Assembly (NCBI GenBank): GCA_913049615.1
Contig: CAJWZI010000026.1
Location: 1 to 10,654 of the forward strand
From: an uncultured Alphaproteobacteria bacterium
GTDB lineage: Bacteria > Pseudomonadota > Alphaproteobacteria > GCA-2731375
Direction: 5' to 3'
DNA length: 10,654 nt
Part shown: piece by piece, positions 1 through 10,654 of the stretch
How positions within the stretch are numbered: the stretch's first letter is position 1
Layout of the letters: every line of letters begins with the position of its first letter
Made by a program: the position numbers and the translations under genes
The notes under the pieces: model-generated
Seen by the model: only the letters and a program-made list of their open reading frames with translations
Databases searched by the model: none
What the model was told of the DNA's origin: nothing

Positions 1-1223
1 ACCCAAGTCCTCATATTCAGACGTTTCGCGTTCCTAATCTGAGTGAGATTAATTTTCCAGCGTTGCGTGCTGGTCGCCTGGCACGATTGCAACAAATGAT
101 GAAACGTCATGAAATCCCAGTTTGTCTTTTCTATAACCCGGGGAATATCCGATACGCAACGGGCACGGAGGTGATGGGTGTATGGACTGCAACCACATTA
201 GCTAGATATGCAGTGGTGCCCGCAGATGGTTCCCCAGTGATGTTTGAATATATGAACTCTATGCATGTCTCAGAGAAATTTGTTGATGACGTGCGCCCCG
301 CTCCAAATTGGCAGTACAAGGCAACTGCGGGGTTAGCAGCAGCTAATAAGTGGGCCGATGAGATTAAGTCTGTCATGGCTGAACTAGGGTACGCTGGTGA
401 ACCACTGGCGGTTGACAAACTTGATGGGTTTGGTTTTATGGCGCTGCAAAATGCCGGTATTACAGTCACGGATCCAAGTCCAGCGACGGTTGATGCGCGT
501 GAAGTAAAAACACCTGAAGAAATTCAATTAATGATTCTTAATGGGGGAGCTGGAGATGCCATGCTAGCGCAGTTCGAGGCGGCAATCCGACCCGGAATTC
601 GGGAGTATGAATTACTGGGAGTGTTGAACAAAGCTTTGTTTGATCACCACGGCGAGTTTATGTTTACCCGTTTGGTTGCTTCCGGCACCAACACCAACCC
701 TTGGATGTCTGAGGCTCATGACAAGGTGATTCAGCCTGGTGATTTGGTTGGTATTGATACTGATGCGAATGTTTATGAAGGCTATGTCGTCGATATTTCC
801 CGGACATTTTTATGTGGTGACATTGCCAGTGAAGGGCAGAAAGAGGCCTACCGAATTGCTTATGATTGTGTGAATGGTATGCGTGAATTGATGAAACCTG
901 GAATGACGTTTGAAGAGTTCGGCCATGCGGCACCAAAATTGCCTTCGGAATATCGGAACGGTCGCTATGGAGCCATGGCCCATCAGGCAGGGTTGGAAGA
1001 TGAAGGACCTGGAATACCCTACCCTGATGATGACCGCCGAGGGGGATGGGGCGTGTCATTCCCAGATCGTACAATTCAGGAGAATATGGTATTTTGCTTG
1101 GAATGCTACGCCGGTAAAGATGGTGCCCCATACGGTGTGAAGCTTGAAGACGAGGTTCTTGTAACCAAAGATGGTGCTGTTGCTTTGAGCACTTATCCTT
1201 TCGAAGCTAAATTGCTTGCCTGA
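1..1223 (+). CDS. M24-fold metalloenzyme, DddP-like (candidate DMSP lyase), 5' end outside window
   Basis: The reading frame is open from the first base. The residues before the TTG at 63 read like the family's conserved lead-in (VPNLSEINFPALRAGRLARL), so the TTG is an internal Leu codon and the true start lies upstream. About 406 residues are visible. Counting from the TTG at 63 as residue 1, the N-terminal creatinase-like domain spans about 1-140 and the pita-bread domain follows. Visible ligands are D232, D234 and D244 (IDTDANVYEGYVVDISRTF), H307, E347 and E362 (KLEDEVLV). From memory, DddP crystal structures use D295, D297, D307, H371, E406 and E421, with Tyr366 and Asp377 near the substrate. 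The D-x-D-x9-D spacing, Y302, D313 and the 15-residue E-E gap all match, while the H-to-first-E gap is 5 longer. DddP cleaves DMSP to dimethyl sulfide and acrylate in the cytoplasm. M24 fold is near certain; DMSP lyase activity is inference, and a prolidase or creatinase-type role remains possible. The stop is TGA. Confidence 0.85.
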   Translation, partial: PSPHIQTFRVPNLSEINFPALRAGRLARLQQMMKRHEIPVCLFYNPGNIRYATGTEVMGVWTATTLARYAVVPADGSPVMFEYMNSMHVSEKFVDDVRPAPNWQYKATAGLAAANKWADEIKSVMAELGYAGEPLAVDKLDGFGFMALQNAGITVTDPSPATVDAREVKTPEEIQLMILNGGAGDAMLAQFEAAIRPGIREYELLGVLNKALFDHHGEFMFTRLVASGTNTNPWMSEAHDKVIQPGDLVGIDTDANVYEGYVVDISRTFLCGDIASEGQKEAYRIAYDCVNGMRELMKPGMTFEEFGHAAPKLPSEYRNGRYGAMAHQAGLEDEGPGIPYPDDDRRGGWGVSFPDRTIQENMVFCLECYAGKDGAPYGVKLEDEVLVTKDGAVALSTYPFEAKLLA

Positions 1224-1274
1224 ATCTGTTTTGTGGAATGGAGCAGACTTTAATCGTGATTTAACAGTTGGACA

Positions 1275-1305
1275 CTAATGACTTCTTCTTTTGAGTAGTC
1301 ATTAG
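1275..1305. promoter_or_regulatory. 9-bp perfect inverted repeat upstream of the oxygenase gene
   Basis: CTAATGACT at 1275-1283 is the exact reverse complement of AGTCATTAG at 1297-1305, with a 13-base spacer. The repeat ends 7 bases before the ATG at 1313, where a ribosome binding site would sit, and no clear Shine-Dalgarno is seen. It could be a repressor operator or an mRNA hairpin controlling translation of the oxygenase. There is no T-run after it, so it does not look like an intrinsic terminator for the gene upstream. Confidence 0.45.
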
Positions 1306-1312
1306 AACTTAA

Positions 1313-2278
1313 ATGCCAAATACTCAAACGTTGGAAATTTCCGCGTTGTTCAGTGGATCTTCAAACGATTACTTCCGTGTGTGTAAGCAGATCGTTGATG
1401 TGCTCAACGAGGAAAGTGGGTTTGTTGCTGTAGGCCACCCGGCAATGGCAGAGCAACATCAACGTGCGGGTCGATTGACAAAGTTTTTCAATCTTGCTGA
1501 CGATGTCAAATTATCGATGGCTACTACGCAGCACCAACCTGCCAATCGAAACCAATACCGGGGTTATTATCCTGCGCCTGAGATTCGGGGTTTTTTAGAC
1601 AAGGAGCGATTGGACATTGGGCCCGAACCTGGCTTGTTGGCTCCGAATTTAGAAGGATCAGAAATTCTTAGTGAGTCAAATCCATGGCCATCGACTGAGC
1701 CACAGGCTGGTTGGCGATCAGATAGCCTTCAGTATTTTGATGATCTAAGAGAAATTGCTGTTGCATTGCTGGATTCAATTGCCTGTGGTTTAAATTTGGA
1801 ACGTCGTGATACGGATAATTTATGTCGAGGGCGTAACGGGACACTTCGACTGCTGAACTATCTGCCCCAACCACAGTATCTGCATTCAAATAACGCCCCC
1901 GAGATCGTTGATCAAAATAATAGATGGATAGTTGGCATCGAACATGTGGATACCACGACACTGACTTTGCTATGGCAGACGTATCCTGGCCTTCAGATCA
2001 AAGGACGAGATGATGTGTGGCGCGATGTTATCCCCCCTAAAGGGGGGCTATCCGTCCATTGTGGAGATCTTTTTACAAAGTTAACTTCAGGTGTGATTAA
2101 CGGATCAATTCACCGTGTACTTGGAGACGGTACGCATCGAACATCAGTAGGTATGTTTCTTGAGCCTGACTGGGCTACGGTAATTCGACCGCCAAATGTA
2201 GATGAAGGATTAAGCTACGCGGAACATTTACTCGGAGTCTTTTCTACACGTAAAAAAGTCCAGGCTAGAAGGTACTAG
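1313..2278 (+). CDS. Isopenicillin N synthase family 2-oxoglutarate/Fe(II) dioxygenase
   Basis: This 321-residue protein has the usual length and order of the family: an N-terminal DIOX_N-type part (LEISALFSG near 7-15, then SGFVAVGH near 35-42) and a C-terminal jelly-roll core. The Fe(II) triad is H211, D213 (EHVDTTTLTLL) and H267 (GSIHRVL); R276-T-S278 is the RxS motif that binds the 2-oxoglutarate carboxylate. Such enzymes couple 2-oxoglutarate decarboxylation to hydroxylation, desaturation, ring closure or oxidative demethylation of a small molecule in the cytoplasm. The substrate cannot be read from sequence. An in-frame TAA (1310-1312) directly precedes the ATG, so no longer start exists. 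It follows the DddP-like gene after 89 bases on the same strand and converges on the lyase block. An N-dealkylation or hydroxylation of a betaine would fit the neighbours but is inference. Confidence 0.88.
   Translation: MPNTQTLEISALFSGSSNDYFRVCKQIVDVLNEESGFVAVGHPAMAEQHQRAGRLTKFFNLADDVKLSMATTQHQPANRNQYRGYYPAPEIRGFLDKERLDIGPEPGLLAPNLEGSEILSESNPWPSTEPQAGWRSDSLQYFDDLREIAVALLDSIACGLNLERRDTDNLCRGRNGTLRLLNYLPQPQYLHSNNAPEIVDQNNRWIVGIEHVDTTTLTLLWQTYPGLQIKGRDDVWRDVIPPKGGLSVHCGDLFTKLTSGVINGSIHRVLGDGTHRTSVGMFLEPDWATVIRPPNVDEGLSYAEHLLGVFSTRKKVQARRY
2032..2047. repeat. C6-TAAA-G6 palindrome inside the oxygenase gene
   Basis: Six C (2032-2037) and six G (2042-2047) flank a TAAA loop. It lies in codons for Ile-Pro-Pro-Lys-Gly-Gly (about residues 240-245), a loop ahead of the GDLF strand in this family. 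The all-GC stem could fold in mRNA, and the two homopolymer runs are slippage-prone. The frame is intact here. Confidence 0.5.
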
Positions 2279-2329
2279 CACATATGTTTATAAGGCATCA
2301 TTGAGATGAGTTGCGAATTGTGTGTTCGC

Positions 2330-3772
2330 CTAACGGTTGAAAACAATGTTTTTCTCAAAGTGCTGTTGTAGGCTTTCGAGTTCATTACCTAGGTTTCTAC
2401 CCGTACGCTTAGTTACTGGCGGTACTAAGTTTCTAATCTGTTCCAATAATGGAGTAAGCCGGTGTGCAGGTTTGCGATTCGTAAGCCACAACGCTTGACT
2501 AGCGCTGGCTGCCAGCAACGTGAGTGATGCTTCCAGGCAGAAAGCTGAGCGAAGGTGCTTTTGGTAGGCAAATACGGACACAGACGCAACATCGTTCTGA
2601 CCGGCGATTCCACCGCCTTCACTAGACGGTAGGAAACTACGCCTAGCAGCAAGTCGTGCTTCTTCGCCATAACCGATCTGTAGAAAACTGAACATCGCAG
2701 TACCGTATGATTCTCCACCCGGTGCAGCTAGATTTGGAGGCAGATGGTCTGCACTGTGCAATTTCATTGTGTGTCGATCGGCGAGTGTGCATAGATCGGC
2801 GTAGCGGGCATTAATATCATCTATTGCGGGCGCGGCTTGGGCATTGTGGTAGCCGCCTGTCGAAATTACGCGGCCGAGTCGGTCACTGCCTTTTGGCAAA
2901 ATATAAACTGGATTATCCGTCACAGCCTGCAATGAAATTTCTGCAGATTCCCGTACGGTGCTGAACGCTTCTTCGGCGGCGGCTAACACGGGGGGCAGTA
3001 TGCGCCAGGACACCGGTGCCTGATAGGGCAAACGGCCTGTATTAGATGCTTTGTTGAGCCAATAGCGTAGAGAGCGAATCGCTTGTTTCTCATGGCGACT
3101 CTGACTGTACCGAAGCAATGAAGCACTGTAAGGTGCGAGTTGTGCCTGGTATGCTTCAATAGACAAGGCGAATACTTGATAGGCTAACGCCAGCCTATTT
3201 TTTGTAGCCAGAGCGACATCGCACAGTACTGCAGTTGAGACAGGCGAACCATTTATTCTAGCCATAGGTTCTGCTTCTTCGGTATCTCCACGGGGCATAT
3301 GACTCATCACATGGGCAAGGGGCAGAATTTCTCCGGCGCCGACCTGCCCGGACAGCGGCACTGTGGGAGTTGGGTTGTCGAGCATCTGTGCAATTCGCTC
3401 AGCCTCAATGGATCGAGTTTTTGCATTACCTTCGATGTAGTTCGTGAGGCGTGCAAAAATGATCATTCGTACGACTCGCTCCGGTAGGTTGTCGGGACCA
3501 AAGCCACCACCGGGCGGCACAAGATTACGTCGTTGTGCCATCTCCTTCTGTTGTTTTGGGGTCAGGCGTTTTGATGCATGCTGTCCTGCCCCAGACGTTG
3601 TGCCATAAATGAAGCGGGAACGGTCGCTGTTCAGGTAAGCCATGAATGATTTACGGGCTTGGTTGATAGATTTCTTGGCCGATTGAGAAATATTTACCGA
3701 TTCGCCATCAATTGCCACGCGTTTTAGGTTTTCGAGTGTGAAATCCTGCCGGTTATTCAAAGTTACAGTCAT
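2330..3772 (-). CDS. HAL/PAL-fold lyase lacking the MIO triad (paralogue A)
   Basis: The 480-residue protein aligns along its length with the histidine/phenylalanine ammonia-lyase family. Landmarks in order are the N-terminal DFTLENLKRVA (10-20), the Tyr loop FIYGTTSGAG (Y56), RINGSPVSTA (N174-G175, matching the family ALxNGT), QAPVSWR (Q251, R257), TDNP (285-288), STGGYHN (304-310), HTMKLH (334-339) and the GQND helix start (391-394). The family triad Ala-Ser-Gly in GSVGASGDLAPL is replaced by GQVGAGEILPL (142-152), so the serine needed to form MIO is absent. P. putida HAL residues H83, Y280 and E414 appear to be Pro, Val (V254) and Asn (N393). Family enzymes eliminate ammonia from His, Phe or Tyr; without MIO, another amine elimination is more likely. 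The ATG at 3772 has no Shine-Dalgarno. It is last in the - strand block, 29 bases after paralogue B, and ends in TAG. Fold is well supported; substrate is unknown. Confidence 0.85.
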   Translation of the reverse strand: MTVTLNNRQDFTLENLKRVAIDGESVNISQSAKKSINQARKSFMAYLNSDRSRFIYGTTSGAGQHASKRLTPKQQKEMAQRRNLVPPGGGFGPDNLPERVVRMIIFARLTNYIEGNAKTRSIEAERIAQMLDNPTPTVPLSGQVGAGEILPLAHVMSHMPRGDTEEAEPMARINGSPVSTAVLCDVALATKNRLALAYQVFALSIEAYQAQLAPYSASLLRYSQSRHEKQAIRSLRYWLNKASNTGRLPYQAPVSWRILPPVLAAAEEAFSTVRESAEISLQAVTDNPVYILPKGSDRLGRVISTGGYHNAQAAPAIDDINARYADLCTLADRHTMKLHSADHLPPNLAAPGGESYGTAMFSFLQIGYGEEARLAARRSFLPSSEGGGIAGQNDVASVSVFAYQKHLRSAFCLEASLTLLAASASQALWLTNRKPAHRLTPLLEQIRNLVPPVTKRTGRNLGNELESLQQHFEKNIVFNR

Positions 3773-3801
3773 GGTTATAGTTTTTGAATTACTAAAAATT
3801 G

Positions 3802-5265
3802 TTAGGCTATGTATTTAGTGAGCACAGAATCGCCATGTTGTATCGCAGATGTCAGGCGGTTGGTGAGTTTCTCAGCACTCTTTCCCAGTTCTCGCTTTTT
3901 GCTGACCGGTGGGAAGTCGCGTCTGATCTCTTGCGCAAATTCGTCGAGGTTGGTGGGCACGGCTCTGCTACAAACATCTAATGCATGGCTAGAGACACCT
4001 GCCAAAAGCGCCATTACCCGGTCAAATAGAACGGCTACACGAGCTTCATTGCGGCAAGCGATGTATCCCATGGCATTGATGTCATCTTGTTCGGATGCAC
4101 CTGGTTCTCCAGCACTCAGAAGACTGGGTTCCGCCCAACGTCTCATCTCGTCGATAAAATCTGCTGCAACGAATTCTATGTACGATGTTGTCCGACCAGT
4201 CCGAAATGTATCGCCATCCCGGACCAAGCGATCGGGAAGGTGGGATACTGGACCTTTATGTAGCTTGATAATATGTCGTCGTGCAACCTCTGCGAGGTCG
4301 ACCCAACTCATCGCCATTCCATCTAATGCCTGAGGCAATAGCGAATTGTGATACCCGCCAGTCGAGATTGCTTCGACTTTGCTTCCAGAACCTCGTGGGA
4401 AAAATATCGGGTTACTAACCATCGACTGTAAGCTTTCCTCTGAAGTTGTTGACAAGCGTTGGCTGGCTCTAAGCGCCTGCCCTAGGAGTCGCGGAAGAAT
4501 TCTGTAGCTCACTGGTGCTTGAAATGGACGCCTGTTTTCGTTTTGGGTCCCTTTGAGGAGGGCGGAAAGGTTGTCAATGGCCCGTGCTTCATAGGGGTCC
4601 CCCCAGAGTGGCTTTAAACCGGGATCGATATGTTCCAAGGGGGCCTGCATGGCGTCATACGATAAGGCGAAAACCTTCTGTGCGACTATAAGGCGCCGGT
4701 TGGCTTCAATAGCTGCGATGCTCCCCATACCGACAGAACAACACGCTGTGTTTCCCCCACTTGCTTGAAGCTGATTCTCACTTGGGCTCGGCATCAGGCG
4801 CATTAGATAAAACAAAGGGAGAATCTCACCAGGTGATGTGAGACCACCCGCAGGTATCCGAGGTACGTCACCATCTAGCGCTTTAGCTAGGTCTTGCGCA
4901 AATTTCTTGCTGACAGCTGCGCCTCCACGCAGAAATAGGGCCAGAATAGCAAATACCATTGCTCGCACTTTTGTTTCAGGCAAGTAATCGTCACCAAATG
5001 ACAGGCCGATGAACGGCATGCCGAGTTCTCTTAAACGTTTACGTTCTTTGGCACTGATCTGACGTTTAGCATTAGGCCCATAATCGCTGGTGACGCCATA
5101 GATGAATTGCCGCGGATGGTCTTTAACGAATTGTCTGAATTCTGTGTGGGCTCTATGCAAGTTTGCCAGCGCAGGACCCCCAAAACGTACTTTCTCGTGA
5201 CCGTCTGCTATTCGCTCGAGGTTGCTGAGAGATAAATCCTGAATTTCGTTGAGTAAAACAGTCAT
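3802..5265 (-). CDS. HAL/PAL-fold lyase lacking the MIO triad (paralogue B)
   Basis: This 487-residue protein is a divergent tandem paralogue of the next gene, with the same opening pattern (MTVLLNEIQD versus MTVTLNNRQD). Shared landmarks are FIYGVTS (Y56), K67 in NAKRQI, GEILPL (146-151), QAPVSYR (Q249, R255), SNP (284-286), STGGYHN (301-307) and HIIKLH (331-336). The MIO site reads GLTSPGEILPL (141-151): the central serine of Ala-Ser-Gly is missing or replaced by Pro. Unlike paralogue A, the ALxNGT region is degenerate (QASGGNTACCSVG, 167-179) and the Glu414-equivalent is Asp (D394). Family enzymes are homotetramers whose active sites use several chains, so A and B may form a mixed complex; this is inference. 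It lies 90 bases after an MttB-family gene and 29 before paralogue A, consistent with cotranscription. The ATG at 5265 follows an A-rich leader without a Shine-Dalgarno. Confidence 0.83.
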   Translation of the reverse strand: MTVLLNEIQDLSLSNLERIADGHEKVRFGGPALANLHRAHTEFRQFVKDHPRQFIYGVTSDYGPNAKRQISAKERKRLRELGMPFIGLSFGDDYLPETKVRAMVFAILALFLRGGAAVSKKFAQDLAKALDGDVPRIPAGGLTSPGEILPLFYLMRLMPSPSENQLQASGGNTACCSVGMGSIAAIEANRRLIVAQKVFALSYDAMQAPLEHIDPGLKPLWGDPYEARAIDNLSALLKGTQNENRRPFQAPVSYRILPRLLGQALRASQRLSTTSEESLQSMVSNPIFFPRGSGSKVEAISTGGYHNSLLPQALDGMAMSWVDLAEVARRHIIKLHKGPVSHLPDRLVRDGDTFRTGRTTSYIEFVAADFIDEMRRWAEPSLLSAGEPGASEQDDINAMGYIACRNEARVAVLFDRVMALLAGVSSHALDVCSRAVPTNLDEFAQEIRRDFPPVSKKRELGKSAEKLTNRLTSAIQHGDSVLTKYIA

Positions 5266-5355
5266 TAGTTATTTTTTTCGTAAATTGGTTGTAATACTAA
5301 AGCCAAGAAAGCGAATCATGGTAATCAGTACAACTTATCTAGACCGGCGGTACGA

Positions 5356-6909
5356 TCATCTCAATACCGCATCAACTCCGATCAGTTCTTGTTTTCGTTT
5401 TGCTACGTATTCTTCGAGTTCTTCCAGGATTGCCGGGTCTAGCGGTGGTTGTTCGTAGTCATTGATTGCCTGTTTCCAGATTGCATTGGCACGTTGTGCT
5501 GAGTCCAGGCTACCGGCTTCTTTCCAGGCTTCGAAATTCGTCCAGTCAGAGACAATGGGGGAATAGAACGCACTGTCATAGCGTTCCATCGTGTGGCTGG
5601 TGCCAAAATAATGCCCGCCGGGCTGTACCTCCCGCATGGCCTCAATGGCGAGGGTTTCCTCATTGACCACCAGCGGTTCCACGAATTCGGCCATCATCTG
5701 CATCATCTCGACATCAATAATCAACTTCTCAAAGGAGGCCACCAGGCCACCTTCTAACCAACCGCCTCCATGTACGATTCTGTTCGCATGACCCATAACG
5801 GCCCCCCACAGGGACATCTCACTTTCGTAGGCTGACTGGGCATCGACGGATGTTGATGCATTGGTGTTGCTGGACCGGAAGGGGATCTGGTAGCGCCTAC
5901 AGAGCTGGCCGGTGATATGGGTGGCTTTGGTCTGTTCTGGGGTACCAAACGCCGGGGACCCAGTGCGCATGTCTACGTTCGAGGTAAAACCACCATAAAC
6001 CGCAGGCACCCCCGGTCGCACCAACTGTGTCAGGACGATGCCGGCCAGCGCCTCGGCATTCTGCTGGGTAATGGCACCAATGACAGTGACCGGAGCCATG
6101 GCACCCGCCAACGTGAAAGGCGTCACAACCACCGGTTGCCCTGCGCGGGCGAGCTCGATCAAACCACCGGCCATGGGCCCGTCTATCAAGCGCGGTGAGT
6201 TGGTGTTGATACCGCCACCAATGACCACATGCTGCGGGAGATCTTCGTAATCGATACCAAAAAGAATACTGGCCATGTTCAGACCATCCCGGGCTTTGTT
6301 GCTGCCCAATAGGGAAGTGTTGATACATTTATCGGTATAACGAATCTGAGCTAATAGAATGTCAAGATGACGGCTGTTCTCGGGTAAATCGAGTGGTTCA
6401 AAGCCCCCACTCGCATAGTGAATAATGTCGTAGGTCTGAAACAGTTTCTTGTAATCACAAAGCTCAGCATACGTTCCCGGCCGACGTCCCCGGTCCAGGT
6501 CTGATACAAAAGCCGGTCCCCCGACTCCCGAGAAAGTGATGTGGTTGCCGCCGAGGGTCACCGACTTGTCTGGGTTGCGGGCTTTCTGGACATATTCTGG
6601 TGGCACGGTTTTGATAATTTCTTCGACCATCTCGGGATCGAGATAGACCATTTCCTCACTGTCGTCGACTCTTGCACCGCCTTCGCGATAGATTTTTCGA
6701 GCTTCTACATCGGTGACTTTCATGCCGAGCTCAGCGAGAACCCGCAACGAAGTCCGATGAATCGATTCGATTTCATCGGCGCTTAAGGGTTCGATGGGCG
6801 GCAGAACGTTTCGTATCTTTTTCCAGGGAAGAGATGGTTTTGCTGGTACACCGGCAGTACGTCGCTTTCGGCGGCGGCTTGGTTCGGATTCAACTTGAGA
6901 ATTAGTCAT
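5356..6909 (-). CDS. MttB-family (trimethylamine) corrinoid methyltransferase, tandem copy 1
   Basis: The 517-residue product belongs to the MttB superfamily, TIM-barrel enzymes that move a methyl group from a quaternary or tertiary amine to a corrinoid protein. Recognisable blocks are LSADEIESIHRTSLRVLAELG (42-62), TFSGVGGPAFVSDLDRG (125-141), TPFTLAGAMAPVT (263-275), GGFTSNVDMRTGSPAFGTPE (306-325), SSNTNASTSVDAQSAYES (346-363) and GGGWLEGGLVASFEKL (381-396). There is no in-frame TAG, so this is a pyrrolysine-free member. Characterised non-Pyl members act on betaines such as glycine betaine, proline betaine or carnitine rather than trimethylamine, so the substrate is open. The N-terminus is Arg/Lys-rich (PSRRRKRRTAG, 10-20) and probably disordered. 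Residues from about 10 to 514 are encoded by the same DNA as copy 2. No corrinoid protein or reactivase gene is in the window. The ATG at 6909 has no obvious Shine-Dalgarno; the stop is TGA. Confidence 0.9.
   Translation of the reverse strand: MTNSQVESEPSRRRKRRTAGVPAKPSLPWKKIRNVLPPIEPLSADEIESIHRTSLRVLAELGMKVTDVEARKIYREGGARVDDSEEMVYLDPEMVEEIIKTVPPEYVQKARNPDKSVTLGGNHITFSGVGGPAFVSDLDRGRRPGTYAELCDYKKLFQTYDIIHYASGGFEPLDLPENSRHLDILLAQIRYTDKCINTSLLGSNKARDGLNMASILFGIDYEDLPQHVVIGGGINTNSPRLIDGPMAGGLIELARAGQPVVVTPFTLAGAMAPVTVIGAITQQNAEALAGIVLTQLVRPGVPAVYGGFTSNVDMRTGSPAFGTPEQTKATHITGQLCRRYQIPFRSSNTNASTSVDAQSAYESEMSLWGAVMGHANRIVHGGGWLEGGLVASFEKLIIDVEMMQMMAEFVEPLVVNEETLAIEAMREVQPGGHYFGTSHTMERYDSAFYSPIVSDWTNFEAWKEAGSLDSAQRANAIWKQAINDYEQPPLDPAILEELEEYVAKRKQELIGVDAVLR
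5366..6884. repeat. 1519-bp direct repeat, copy 1 (body of the MttB gene)
   Basis: Line-by-line comparison shows this segment identical by eye to 7014-8532, at a constant offset of 1648. Identity stops inside both ends of the coding sequence. At the 3' end the last codons are GTA TTG AGA TGA here and GTC CTT CGC TAA in copy 2, both encoding Val-Leu-Arg. At the 5' end identity stops in codon 9, upstream of the Pro-Ser-Arg-Arg-Arg stretch. The intergenic sequences do not match. Confidence 0.93.
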
Positions 6910-6935
6910 TGTTTAGCCATTTTAGGAGAGTTGAC

Positions 6936-6960
6936 TGCTAAACGCTTTTCAGCGTTTGCA
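6936..6960 (-). promoter_or_regulatory. RNA hairpin with GAAA tetraloop between the tandem MttB genes
   Basis: Read on the - strand the transcript gives a 7-bp stem AAACGCT/AGCGTTT closed by a GAAA loop, a GNRA-type tetraloop. It is extended by TGC/GCA (6958-6960 with 6936-6938) around one unpaired base at 6939. It lies 26 bases before the start of MttB copy 1 and 43 bases after the stop of copy 2. No U-run follows, so it is unlikely to be an intrinsic terminator; transcript processing or stabilisation is more plausible. The fold is from base pairing by eye. Confidence 0.5.
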
Positions 6961-7003
6961 GGGAGATAGGCTGACGTGTCACGGATTGATCTTCAATAAA
7001 CTG

Positions 7004-8557
7004 TTAGCGAAGGACCGCATCAACTCCGATCAGTTCTTGTTTTCGTTTTGCTACGTATTCTTCGAGTTCTTCCAGGATTGCCGGGTCTAGCGGTGGTTGT
7101 TCGTAGTCATTGATTGCCTGTTTCCAGATTGCATTGGCACGTTGTGCTGAGTCCAGGCTACCGGCTTCTTTCCAGGCTTCGAAATTCGTCCAGTCAGAGA
7201 CAATGGGGGAATAGAACGCACTGTCATAGCGTTCCATCGTGTGGCTGGTGCCAAAATAATGCCCGCCGGGCTGTACCTCCCGCATGGCCTCAATGGCGAG
7301 GGTTTCCTCATTGACCACCAGCGGTTCCACGAATTCGGCCATCATCTGCATCATCTCGACATCAATAATCAACTTCTCAAAGGAGGCCACCAGGCCACCT
7401 TCTAACCAACCGCCTCCATGTACGATTCTGTTCGCATGACCCATAACGGCCCCCCACAGGGACATCTCACTTTCGTAGGCTGACTGGGCATCGACGGATG
7501 TTGATGCATTGGTGTTGCTGGACCGGAAGGGGATCTGGTAGCGCCTACAGAGCTGGCCGGTGATATGGGTGGCTTTGGTCTGTTCTGGGGTACCAAACGC
7601 CGGGGACCCAGTGCGCATGTCTACGTTCGAGGTAAAACCACCATAAACCGCAGGCACCCCCGGTCGCACCAACTGTGTCAGGACGATGCCGGCCAGCGCC
7701 TCGGCATTCTGCTGGGTAATGGCACCAATGACAGTGACCGGAGCCATGGCACCCGCCAACGTGAAAGGCGTCACAACCACCGGTTGCCCTGCGCGGGCGA
7801 GCTCGATCAAACCACCGGCCATGGGCCCGTCTATCAAGCGCGGTGAGTTGGTGTTGATACCGCCACCAATGACCACATGCTGCGGGAGATCTTCGTAATC
7901 GATACCAAAAAGAATACTGGCCATGTTCAGACCATCCCGGGCTTTGTTGCTGCCCAATAGGGAAGTGTTGATACATTTATCGGTATAACGAATCTGAGCT
8001 AATAGAATGTCAAGATGACGGCTGTTCTCGGGTAAATCGAGTGGTTCAAAGCCCCCACTCGCATAGTGAATAATGTCGTAGGTCTGAAACAGTTTCTTGT
8101 AATCACAAAGCTCAGCATACGTTCCCGGCCGACGTCCCCGGTCCAGGTCTGATACAAAAGCCGGTCCCCCGACTCCCGAGAAAGTGATGTGGTTGCCGCC
8201 GAGGGTCACCGACTTGTCTGGGTTGCGGGCTTTCTGGACATATTCTGGTGGCACGGTTTTGATAATTTCTTCGACCATCTCGGGATCGAGATAGACCATT
8301 TCCTCACTGTCGTCGACTCTTGCACCGCCTTCGCGATAGATTTTTCGAGCTTCTACATCGGTGACTTTCATGCCGAGCTCAGCGAGAACCCGCAACGAAG
8401 TCCGATGAATCGATTCGATTTCATCGGCGCTTAAGGGTTCGATGGGCGGCAGAACGTTTCGTATCTTTTTCCAGGGAAGAGATGGTTTTGCTGGTACACC
8501 GGCAGTACGTCGCTTTCGGCGGCGGCTTGGTTGTAAGTTTACGGTTGAGTCATTCAT
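7004..8557 (-). CDS. MttB-family (trimethylamine) corrinoid methyltransferase, tandem copy 2
   Basis: This 517-residue methyltransferase has the same product as copy 1 except for the first nine residues or so (MNDSTVNLQPSRRR here, MTNSQVESEPSRRR there). The fold, absence of an in-frame TAG and family motifs are therefore the same. It is the second gene of the - strand block, 33 bases after the amidotransferase-like gene and 94 bases before copy 1. The ATG at 8557 lacks a visible Shine-Dalgarno and the stop is TAA. The differing ends, with synonymous changes in the last three codons, indicate that copies 1 and 2 were separate paralogues whose interiors were homogenised. Protein identity this high implies that both have the same substrate, so the second copy may add dosage, or the distinct leaders and N-termini may give different expression. 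Confidence 0.9.
   Translation of the reverse strand: MNDSTVNLQPSRRRKRRTAGVPAKPSLPWKKIRNVLPPIEPLSADEIESIHRTSLRVLAELGMKVTDVEARKIYREGGARVDDSEEMVYLDPEMVEEIIKTVPPEYVQKARNPDKSVTLGGNHITFSGVGGPAFVSDLDRGRRPGTYAELCDYKKLFQTYDIIHYASGGFEPLDLPENSRHLDILLAQIRYTDKCINTSLLGSNKARDGLNMASILFGIDYEDLPQHVVIGGGINTNSPRLIDGPMAGGLIELARAGQPVVVTPFTLAGAMAPVTVIGAITQQNAEALAGIVLTQLVRPGVPAVYGGFTSNVDMRTGSPAFGTPEQTKATHITGQLCRRYQIPFRSSNTNASTSVDAQSAYESEMSLWGAVMGHANRIVHGGGWLEGGLVASFEKLIIDVEMMQMMAEFVEPLVVNEETLAIEAMREVQPGGHYFGTSHTMERYDSAFYSPIVSDWTNFEAWKEAGSLDSAQRANAIWKQAINDYEQPPLDPAILEELEEYVAKRKQELIGVDAVLR
7014..8532. repeat. 1519-bp direct repeat, copy 2 (body of the MttB gene)
   Basis: This is the partner of 5366-6884 in the same orientation. 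Every line compared by eye was identical, including third codon positions. Two identical segments this long, 129 bases apart, are a substrate for homologous recombination that would remove 1648 bases and leave one hybrid MttB gene in frame. Confidence 0.93.
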
Positions 8558-8590
8558 GGCTTGATGATGTATGAAATTAGTGAGACGAAT

Positions 8591-9304
8591 TTATGATGAG
8601 GGACCAACGAGGTCAGTTAAAAATTGACCTAGCCATTTCGCTTGGATTGGGTCGTAGAGATGACCCAACTCATCTTGTTGCTCTTGGGTCTGGGCTCCGG
8701 GGCAGCCGTAAGCGGCAAAATCAGAGACCTGCCAACGCTTAAAATTCTCCCGTGTGCATTCGGGATGAAATTGAAACCCAAAAGTTGTCTGTCCGTAACG
8801 GAAAGCCTGTGGAAAGTGTTCCGTTTTCGCAAGTAGTGTTGCGCCTTCCGGCACTGAAAAACCATGATAGTGTGCTTCCGTACCATACATTTGGTCCGGA
8901 AAAAAGTCGGTAGCCTCATCGGTGAGTGTCAGCGGGTAATAGCCGAATTCATGGATCCCATCAGCATGAGGTGCGACGTCCGCACCCAGTGCGCGGGCGA
9001 TGATTTGGCCACCCAAACAGAACCCTACCGTCGGAATCTGCCGATCAATGCACTGTTTTGCCCACTGGACCTCTTTCTGTAGCCAAGGATAAAGATCCGT
9101 GTGCCAGTCTTTTTCGTGTTCAGGCTTTCCTCCTCCGTAAATGACTGTAATCGCTACCGAGTCGTCAGGCTGATCCAGCCGGTCACCTTGGTCGATATGC
9201 CGCCAGTCAAGCTCATAACCGAGTTGGTCTAGTCGAGCTGCAGCGCGGTCCCGGGTTTCGGGTCCATCTGATCCATGAGGAATTAATACGGCTCGTTGTG
9301 CCAT
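8591..9304 (-). CDS. Class I glutamine amidotransferase-like protein (GMP-synthase-type GATase domain)
   Basis: The 237-residue protein is a stand-alone class I amidotransferase domain. The nucleophile is C96 in the elbow VGFCLGGQIIARALGA; the partner pair is H180 and E182 in FQFHPEC. YGGGKPEH (56-63) supplies the oxyanion strand, and HYHGFSVPEGATLLAKTEHFPQ (145-166) is the conserved stretch seen in GMP-synthase-like GATases. The domain hydrolyses glutamine, or a related gamma-glutamyl amide, to release ammonia or an amine. No synthetase partner is in the window, so it may act on its own like PuuD-type gamma-glutamyl hydrolases. The start is placed at 9304: the protein motif order begins there (MAQRAVLIPHG) and AGGGGG lies 6 bases upstream. 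A longer frame to 9568 exists but overlaps the divergent gene. It is the first gene of the - strand block, 33 bases before MttB copy 2. Its role there is unknown. Confidence 0.85.
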   Translation of the reverse strand: MAQRAVLIPHGSDGPETRDRAAARLDQLGYELDWRHIDQGDRLDQPDDSVAITVIYGGGKPEHEKDWHTDLYPWLQKEVQWAKQCIDRQIPTVGFCLGGQIIARALGADVAPHADGIHEFGYYPLTLTDEATDFFPDQMYGTEAHYHGFSVPEGATLLAKTEHFPQAFRYGQTTFGFQFHPECTRENFKRWQVSDFAAYGCPGAQTQEQQDELGHLYDPIQAKWLGQFLTDLVGPSS

Positions 9305-9540
9305 CGAATGCCCCCTATGATTTGTTACGATTATTTGTATTGTTGGGTCTCCAGAATAATAACCGCGAAACCCTTTATTAAACGGTCGGTAGGGTACACC
9401 AATTGCACATTTAGCCCAAGGCCACGACCCGTATATATCGTCAGCCATATGACTTCTATAGACTATCGCTCGTAGGTATTCTTTATAGGTATAGGTACGC
9501 GTCCCCCACAGAGGCAAATTCTGATTTAAGGCGATACGGT
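9305..9540. promoter_or_regulatory. Divergent intergenic region, probable promoters for both flanking transcription units
   Basis: These 236 bases separate the start of the - strand block from the + strand MttB-family gene and hold no supportable gene. Parts are AT-rich (9321-9376, 9432-9492), as expected for promoters, but no convincing -35/-10 pair with good spacing was found on either strand. Three AGGTA repeats lie at 9474, 9487 and 9494. On the - side, AGGGGG (9316-9311) is the likely ribosome binding site of the amidotransferase gene. The region is the obvious place for a shared regulator to act. Confidence 0.5.
9528..9531 (+). promoter_or_regulatory. Shine-Dalgarno (AAGG) for the + strand MttB-family gene
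   Basis: AAGG lies 9 bases upstream of the ATG at 9541. The frame is open further upstream but has no ATG close by, so this site decides the start. Most genes of the opposing block lack such a site. Confidence 0.5.
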
Positions 9541-10654
9541 ATGTCGGATAGATCTGATTCATCAACAAGGCGTCGAGGTCGACGAAAGCGGGTAGATACA
9601 GCTAATGTCGATGTGATCGATCAGTTACCCTGGGCGCAACCTATCTACACCGACCCCCCCACCGAGCCACTAGACGAAGACGGCCTTGAAGCAGTTCATG
9701 ATGCGGCGATGCGTATCGTGGAAGAAATTGGAATTGATTTTCTCCATGAGGAGGCCCGTAAAATATTGAAATACGCGGGCTGTGATGTTAGATCAGGTTC
9801 TCCGACAGTTCGTATGGATCGAGCATTCGTCATGGCGCAGGTTGAGAAAGCTCCCTCGACCATTACGCTGGAACCGAGAAATCCGCAGCGTAGTATTGTA
9901 TTTGGTGGAGCCTATGCAGCGTTTGGGCAGGTAGCCAGTCCGCCTAATGTTTCGGATTTGGACGGCGGGCGTCGCACCGGCAACCGAAAAGACTACCAGA
10001 ACTTATTGCGTCTGGCTCAAAGTTTTAACTGCATTCATTTCACAGGGGGCCACCCTGTTGAACCGGTAGACCTTCACGCATCTACGCGACACCTGGATGC
10101 ATTATTCGATATGCTAACCCTGACTGATAAGGTGATTCATGCTTACTCTTTGGGTAAAGAACGCATGGAAGATGCCATTGAAATGGTGCGAATTGCTGCA
10201 GGGGTCGATGACGAAGCGTTTGATGCAAAGATACGGATGTTCACCAATATCAATTCGTCATCGCCGCTGAAGCATGACTGGCCCATGCTTGATGGTGCAA
10301 TGCGACTGGCTCGCCGGAATCAGTTGGTGATTGTTACTCCATTTACTTTGTCAGGGGCGATGGCGCCGGTGACGTTGGCGGGGGCATTGGCTCAACAGAC
10401 TGCTGAAGGACTAGCAGCGATTGCGTTGTTGCAAGTCGTGCGCCCTGGTGCCCCTGTCGCTTATGGTTCTTTTACCTCTAATGTAGACATGAAGTCAGGG
10501 GCCCCGGCATTTGGTACGCCGGAATATATGCGCGCCACACAAATCTCCGGTCAGTTGGCGCGGCGATACGAGTTGCCATGGCGGGCATCCAACGCCAATG
10601 CCACCAACTGCGTCGATGCCCAGGCCACCTGGGAAAGTGCAGCATCGTTATGGG
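9541..10654 (+). CDS. MttB-family corrinoid methyltransferase, third divergent paralogue, 3' end outside window
   Basis: The ATG at 9541 opens a frame that stays open to the window edge, giving 371 residues. It is clearly homologous to the tandem copies: it begins with a basic Arg-rich tail (RRRGRRKRVD, 10-19), then LDEDGLEAVHDAAMRIVEEIG, NVSDLDGGRRTG, VTPFTLSGAMAPVTLAG, GSFTSNVDMKSGAPAFGTPEY and SNANATNCVDAQATWES. It is well diverged at the amino-acid level (for example WRASNANATNC versus FRSSNTNASTS), so it probably handles a different substrate or corrinoid partner. There is no in-frame TAG in the visible part, so it is also pyrrolysine-free there. It is transcribed away from the - strand block across the shared intergenic region, suggesting co-regulation. 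A run of seven C at 9654-9660 lies near codons 38-40. Family call is firm; substrate is unknown. The missing C-terminus should be about 145 residues if the length matches its paralogues. Confidence 0.9.
   Translation, partial: MSDRSDSSTRRRGRRKRVDTANVDVIDQLPWAQPIYTDPPTEPLDEDGLEAVHDAAMRIVEEIGIDFLHEEARKILKYAGCDVRSGSPTVRMDRAFVMAQVEKAPSTITLEPRNPQRSIVFGGAYAAFGQVASPPNVSDLDGGRRTGNRKDYQNLLRLAQSFNCIHFTGGHPVEPVDLHASTRHLDALFDMLTLTDKVIHAYSLGKERMEDAIEMVRIAAGVDDEAFDAKIRMFTNINSSSPLKHDWPMLDGAMRLARRNQLVIVTPFTLSGAMAPVTLAGALAQQTAEGLAAIALLQVVRPGAPVAYGSFTSNVDMKSGAPAFGTPEYMRATQISGQLARRYELPWRASNANATNCVDAQATWESAASLW

Follow-up and report, generated by a model that had tools for sequence, protein, structure and literature searches.

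Two tandem histidine ammonia-lyase-fold paralogues that lack the MIO triad: a very probably functional pair and a tentative onium-lyase reading

The window analysed here is a stretch of 10,654 nucleotides (contig CAJWZI010000026.1, positions 1 to 10,654) from an uncultured, probably marine Alphaproteobacteria bacterium. It carries two adjacent genes whose products, paralogues A and B, have the fold of histidine ammonia-lyase (HAL) and lack the Ala-Ser-Gly triad of the 4-methylideneimidazole-5-one (MIO) cofactor. The genes and the sites of interest are as follows.

2330..3772, reverse strand: paralogue A, HAL-fold protein without the MIO triad, 480 residues; open reading frame (ORF) intact from ATG to stop
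3317..3343, reverse strand: MIO site of A, residues 144-152, VGAGEILPL, serine deleted (translation and alignment)
3773..3801, reverse strand: 29-bp gap, with B upstream of A
3802..5265, reverse strand: paralogue B, HAL-fold protein without the MIO triad, 487 residues; ORF intact from ATG to stop
4813..4839, reverse strand: MIO site of B, residues 143-151, TSPGEILPL, serine deleted (translation and alignment)

An earlier, sequence-only reading had described two adjacent full-length HAL-fold paralogues in this region. This was borne out by the two open frames, by matches to the Pfam family Lyase_aromatic (PF00221; 177 bits for A and 151 bits for B, cut-off 27.3) and by confident AlphaFold2 models (pLDDT 92.4 for A and 91.1 for B). 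Both proteins missed the curated NCBIfam hutH cut-off of 539 bits, with 138 bits for A and 103 bits for B. When compared with the PDB, both models matched HAL, TAL, TAM and ergothionase along the whole chain; the matches of B were tied, and the fold comparison could not single out ergothionase, HAL or TAM as the nearest relative of the pair. The absence of the Ala-Ser-Gly triad, also claimed in that reading, held when VGAGEILPL and TSPGEILPL were re-read from the DNA. In the alignment of the site, VGA-GEIL in A and TSP-GEIL in B stood against VGASGDLA in HAL, indicating that the serine was deleted rather than replaced, and a helix starts at the GE site in both models (residues 146-156 in A and 148-157 in B). 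In an alignment of 81 rows, ASGD was present in all eight canonical HALs derived from loci, a ninth MIO row being a crystal chain in which MIO is printed as X. The 72 non-MIO rows had a gap at the serine, and none of them had a serine aligned at the MIO position. With the missing MIO loop placed by this sequence alignment, A and B cannot form MIO.

To define how widely the deletion is shared, we took the best 120 of 2035 protein matches for A and the best 120 of 325 for B, which amounted to 232 different relatives. The MIO site was covered by 229 of them, and among these listed matches GE was present in 229 of 229 and ASG in none. Sequencing error, a frameshift and chance were ruled out by the intact ORFs together with the recurrence of the same gap in every relative that covers the site. 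The nearest clusters in the A and B searches, P0001 (98%) and P0121 (99%), contained 79 and 143 member sequences, and the best named relatives came from SAR202 and Chloroflexi metagenome-assembled genomes (MAGs; P0002, 87%, and P0124, 84%). When A, B and 21 diverse relatives were compared (n = 23), T59, G63, G147, E148, N174, Q251, R257, N287 and P288 were invariant and Y56 was nearly so. The proposal that these are members of a conserved, functional subfamily and not decaying genes is therefore upheld by the retention of GE and by the invariance of Gln251, Arg257 and Asn287 with the near-invariance of Tyr56. The accompanying proposal of a shared GEILPL motif survived in part: the site is conserved, GEILPL itself is only its local form, and the constant part is G-E minus the serine. 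Pseudogenes were not favoured, the active-site columns being conserved. Judged from these patterns of conservation, the MIO-less pair is very probably functional.

One MIO-free enzyme with this fold is already known. Ergothionase has no MIO, as described in the available part of PMC13405746, and its chain 6s7j shows the same one-residue deletion at the serine (SIGE-GDI). The view that MIO is the hallmark of the family had thus already been broken by a characterised enzyme. The kind of protein found here is accordingly not new, and it is the A/B branch and its pairing that are undescribed in the literature searched. In that literature, in which subscription journals are thinly covered and whose papers were available in part (they include PMC13405746, PMC3903478, PMC12478193, PMC7653990 and PMC4108388), we saw neither the A/B group described nor any natural MIO-less relative of HAL apart from ergothionase.

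A tree of 59 rows was built with the MIO columns removed and TAL as the root; PAL was absent, and 24 of the 83 available rows were left out. The 48 MIO-less rows, including ergothionase, were split from the 11 HAL, TAL and TAM rows with support of 95/92 and in 96% of 200 bootstrap trees. The alignment and tree with HAL, TAL, aminomutase and ergothionase that the sequence-only reading had suggested as a check thus placed A and B on the MIO-less side, together with ergothionase. On that side, the four ergothionase-like rows formed one subgroup (100/96) and the other 44 rows, A and B among them, formed a second (100/99). The 12 A-type rows were a single group (98/93), as were the 10 B-type rows (100/99), and each of these groups held one unlabelled row from genome G491. 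The tree is consistent with one ancestral serine deletion, without proving it. The best PDB match of two relatives, L090 (241 bits) and L139 (303 bits), was 6s7j. At L139 (Sinorhizobium meliloti 2011 pSymA), the ergothionase-like gene at 5938-7578 has a signal-like N-terminus, as judged by eye, and is followed by an SBP_bac_5 protein gene and then by a gene for a DMSP_lyase-type cupin; the gene table of the record is nearly empty here.

Active-site residues were compared in what we take to be HAL numbering, with Tyr53 presumed to be the active-site tyrosine and Arg283 the carboxylate-binding arginine. Among the 48 MIO-less rows, the equivalent of Tyr53 was kept in all 48 and those of Gln277 and Arg283 in 47 each; the Tyr53 and Arg283 equivalents are Tyr56 and Arg257 in A and Tyr56 and Arg255 in B. 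The Ser143 equivalent is lost in both paralogues. The Tyr280 position held Tyr in all 11 MIO rows and Leu in all four ergothionase-like rows; the remaining 44 had Val or Ile there, with Val in both A and B. Thus, in the aligned sequences, the serine and Tyr280 are lost together and the tyrosine and the carboxylate-binding arginine are retained. Retention of the Tyr53 and Arg283 equivalents alongside the loss of Ser143 and Tyr280 suggests enzymes that eliminate a good leaving group rather than dead ones. The Glu414 equivalent was kept in the four ergothionase-like rows and was Asn in 12 of 12 A-type rows and Asp in 10 of 10 B-type rows. Because of this change, A and B probably bind a side chain other than imidazole. 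The change at Glu414, together with the position in the tree, also led us to reject the idea that A and B are ergothionase itself. The earlier statement that these proteins must use other chemistry or be non-catalytic stands in its premise, since they are MIO-less; its non-catalytic option is not favoured, given the conserved Tyr and Arg in both paralogues.

A and B also recur together. The tandem B-A order was found in the DNA of the window and at one locus in each of three other genomes, G491 (L116), G002 (L118) and G003 (L119). In these three, the stop codon of B and the start codon of A overlap (ATGA), and in the window they are separated by the 29-bp gap. By indirect inference, 12 of the 40 best A matches have a B match that seems to come from the same assembly. 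That the pair recurs, its genes overlapping at ATGA in three genomes, favours a predicted heteromer of A and B. In searches of related genomes, 17 of 385 in the class of G002 matched B at 1e-40, with pair-level identity only in G002 and G491. The order of G003 gave one match in 17 genomes, the order of G491 gave G491 alone, and the order of a Rhodobacterales-like genome gave 3 of 36, all distant members. No further A/B pair was found in the class of a Chloroflexota locus (1 of 41 genomes matched at 1e-60) or in its phylum (2 of 400 genomes matched, with at most three candidates scored per genome).

The other genes in the window are as follows.

3..1223, forward strand: M24-fold protein, DddP-like, open at the 5' end (PDB matches; NCBIfam DddP below cut-off)
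1313..2278, forward strand: 2-oxoglutarate-Fe(II) oxygenase, isopenicillin-N-synthase-like (PF03171, PDB matches)
5356..6909, reverse strand: MttB-superfamily methyltransferase (PF06253, 644 bits)
7004..8557, reverse strand: second, near-identical MttB copy (1535 of 1554 bases the same)
8591..9568, reverse strand: class I glutamine amidotransferase-like ORF (PF00117; NCBIfam PRK06490 160 bits, below cut-off)
9541..10653, forward strand: third MttB-superfamily gene, 3' end beyond the window (PF06253, 465 bits)

The best PDB matches of the M24 gene were 4rzy, 4s01, 4s00 and 4b28 at 166-173 bits, the next being at 63; we take the first three to be DddP. The fourth, 4b28, is the dimethylsulfoniopropionate (DMSP) lyase RdDddP (PMC4108388, available part). 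In the alignment of the PDB match, the M24 gene keeps all six DddP metal ligands, as named in the same part of that paper (D252, D254, D264, H327, E367 and E382), as well as the equivalents of DddP Tyr366 and Asp377 (Y322 and D333). The first MttB gene matched 4yyc at 367 bits and the glycine betaine methyltransferase 9yce at 313 bits in the PDB, against only 154 bits for chains 7xcl and 7xcm, which are named trimethylamine methyltransferase. It has no in-frame amber codon, since its frame is open without a stop. Together, the M24 and MttB neighbours suggest methylated onium compounds.

The first two MttB genes are identical over about 1.52 kb and differ only in the 10 bases at the start and the 25 at the end; the twins arose by gene conversion or a recent duplication, or else they are an artefact of assembly. 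The amidotransferase ORF begins with a TTG that overlaps the divergent third MttB gene, and its true start is probably downstream. At another locus (L124, 4828-9251), an ordinary ASGD HAL gene adjoins a gene of the MttB family that shares 69% identity with the window's third copy. A promoter and terminator scan was uninformative (2 promoters against 7.1 expected and 11 terminators against 7.6 expected), and a PADLOC search for an anti-phage role, made with A only, gave no match.

A genome scan kept 80 of 158 relatives (80 loci). The G491 pair is adjoined by a PF16867 DMSP_lyase cupin, a family unrelated to M24, and around the G003 pair lie several M24 genes along with one that resembles a choline-sulfatase gene. 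Near more distant MIO-less relatives, PF02574 methyltransferases adjoin L138 and L120, and MttB genes occur in L064/L164, L117 and L152. A DMSP_lyase-type cupin lies 2.6 kb from L139. According to the available part of PMC12478193, PF06253 is a glycine-betaine-binding methyltransferase of marine bacteria and PF02574 is the linked methionine-synthesis module, with later demethylation genes nearby. Genes of the ornithine cyclodeaminase/mu-crystallin type were seen near the MIO-less members of L054, L089, L090, L123, L152 and L158, and also near the ordinary HAL of L124.

The MIO-less group is expanded in G491, a 2.7-Mb genome with 26 paralogues by motif (L115-L117, L136-L138 and L158-L163), several of them in tandem arrays of 2 to 6 genes, and with two other hutH-model matches at 681 and 491 bits. 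Members were also found in hut loci. In a Chloroflexota MAG (G001; L065, 645-8565), an MIO-less gene occupies the position of hutH after hutC and hutU, and hutG and hutF lie close by; in G771 (L147, 6788-10817), an MIO-less gene likewise takes the position of hutH behind hutC and hutU. No hutH-level sequence was found in either genome, the best scores being 77 and 74 bits against 539. Either these assemblies lack the canonical hutH, or urocanate is made by the MIO-less enzyme, from hercynine or histidine. The two proteins share 81% identity even though L065 belongs to a Chloroflexota MAG and the genome of L147 was sampled within the class of a Hyphomicrobiales MAG.

The MIO group of HAL activates a poor leaving group, ammonia, and trimethylammonium or dimethylsulfonium leaves unaided. 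Because the electrophile and Tyr280 are gone and Tyr56 and the arginine are kept, A and B should eliminate a group that leaves by itself. With the base and the carboxylate clamp kept and the electrophile absent, they would 1,2-eliminate a trimethylammonium- or dimethylsulfonium-type group from a carboxylate such as an amino-acid betaine. The products would be an unsaturated acid and trimethylamine (or dimethyl sulfide), as with ergothionase. The methyltransferases and the DddP-like protein encoded nearby would have methylated compounds of this class as their substrates. We tentatively propose that A and B are MIO-free 'onium' lyases of the HAL fold that are inherited together and probably form a heteromer, an explanation to which we give slightly less than an even chance and in which we infer the chemistry, the leaving group and the heteromer. 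Dimethylglycine/sarcosine-dehydrogenase-type genes occurred in 8 of the 80 loci against 3.0 expected (P 0.01), an expectation calculated from copy numbers in 38 genomes, all eight positives included, with their mean density given to the rest. This modest excess is a suggestive sign, and only that, of an onium context.

Several observations weigh against the onium-lyase proposal. A and B fall outside the ergothionase subclade, and ergothioneine is an unlikely substrate on sequence grounds because the Glu414 of ergothionase is replaced by Asn or Asp. The M24 gene scored 234 bits, below the NCBIfam DddP cut-off of 600. At the G003 pair there was no MttB or DMSP-lyase seed match, and the first M24 gene there is just 22% identical to that of the window; at the G002 pair, no betaine or DMSP genes were found at the locus. 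Neighbour seeds were present in only 11 of the 80 loci and absent from 69, including all 24 titled Mesorhizobium. As for the dehydrogenase excess, the expectation over the 38 measured genomes alone, 1.4 loci, overstates it because these genomes were chosen to include all eight positives; the eight loci are not independent, since five belong to one subclade, and two matches are weak (L012 and L057, 86-95 bits).

The absence of onium-type neighbours from most loci would also fit another eliminase, isomerase or hydratase, in which the fold has been turned to chemistry on C-O, C-S or C=C bonds that involves no onium leaving group. The family is diverse, as the 26 paralogues in G491 illustrate, and neighbours vary, with RraA and an ILVD dehydratase at L115, SHMT at L149 and a pyridoxal-phosphate sulfo-lyase-like gene at L147 (CuyA model, below cut-off). 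The informative neighbours in the window and at L116 nevertheless point to methylated amines or sulfonium compounds, and we consider such other chemistry unlikely for A and B. In HAL-type enzymes several subunits contribute to an active site, which leaves room for a structural role of one paralogue; one or both of A and B might then be a non-catalytic pseudoenzyme subunit with a stabilising or regulatory effect on its partner, which would suit the recurrent pairing and the ATGA coupling of the genes. This is rather improbable in view of the residues kept, namely the Tyr53, Gln277 and Arg283 equivalents (12 of 12 each in A-type rows; 10, 9 and 9 of 10 in B-type rows) and that of Asn195 (11 of 12 and 10 of 10).

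A further alternative, which we judge improbable, is an MIO-free ammonia-lyase that deaminates unmethylated amino acids by direct acid-base elimination with no electrophile, in the manner of the aspartase/fumarase superfamily. The hut loci are the case for it, yet G001 is a MAG, the hut context fits hercynine (histidine betaine) equally well as a substrate, and A and B themselves have no hut context. Moreover, replacing the serine of HAL and PAL with alanine lowers activity more than a thousandfold (PMC3903478, available part).

The onium-lyase proposal can be widened, with less confidence, to the family as a whole. In this somewhat unlikely extension, a single loss of MIO from the HAL fold was followed by radiation into a large and widespread family of onium lyases that work without a cofactor and cleave many different amino-acid betaines and sulfonium acids. 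The family would include the marine A/B heteromer, the 26 paralogues of a single genome and an MIO-less stand-in for HutH that supplies the histidine pathway from hercynine or even from histidine, and ergothionase would be its first known member. Among the matches listed, many members of this PF00221 branch are labelled 'histidine ammonia-lyase' in their source names, and these labels are probably wrong because such members cannot do MIO chemistry. If the onium-lyase reading is true, the branch would supply trimethylamine or dimethyl sulfide in sea and soil from sources so far unrecognised, and a fold known for one exotic self-made cofactor would have been put to use again without MIO, the leaving group being one that does not need it. 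The reading can be tested directly on the A/B pair and on the hut loci that lack hutH.

Among known systems, HAL, PAL, TAL and TAM share the whole-chain fold with A and B, but the paralogues have neither the Ala-Ser-Gly triad nor Tyr280 and lie off the MIO side of the tree. Relatives with SIGAGDL (L090 from Mesorhizobium and L123 from G002) or SVGQADM (L139 from Sinorhizobium meliloti pSymA) have the same deletion as A and B and, unlike them, group with ergothionase (100/96). Ergothionase of Treponema denticola (PDB 6s7j and 6s7q) resembles A and B in its HAL fold, its lack of MIO and its one-residue serine deletion, and it likewise has Tyr280 replaced and the equivalents of Tyr53, Gln277 and Arg283 kept. 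It differs in sequence, with 15-18% identity in structural alignments, in having GEGD where A and B have GAGE and SPGE (Asp to Glu), and in retaining Glu414, where A has Asn and B has Asp.

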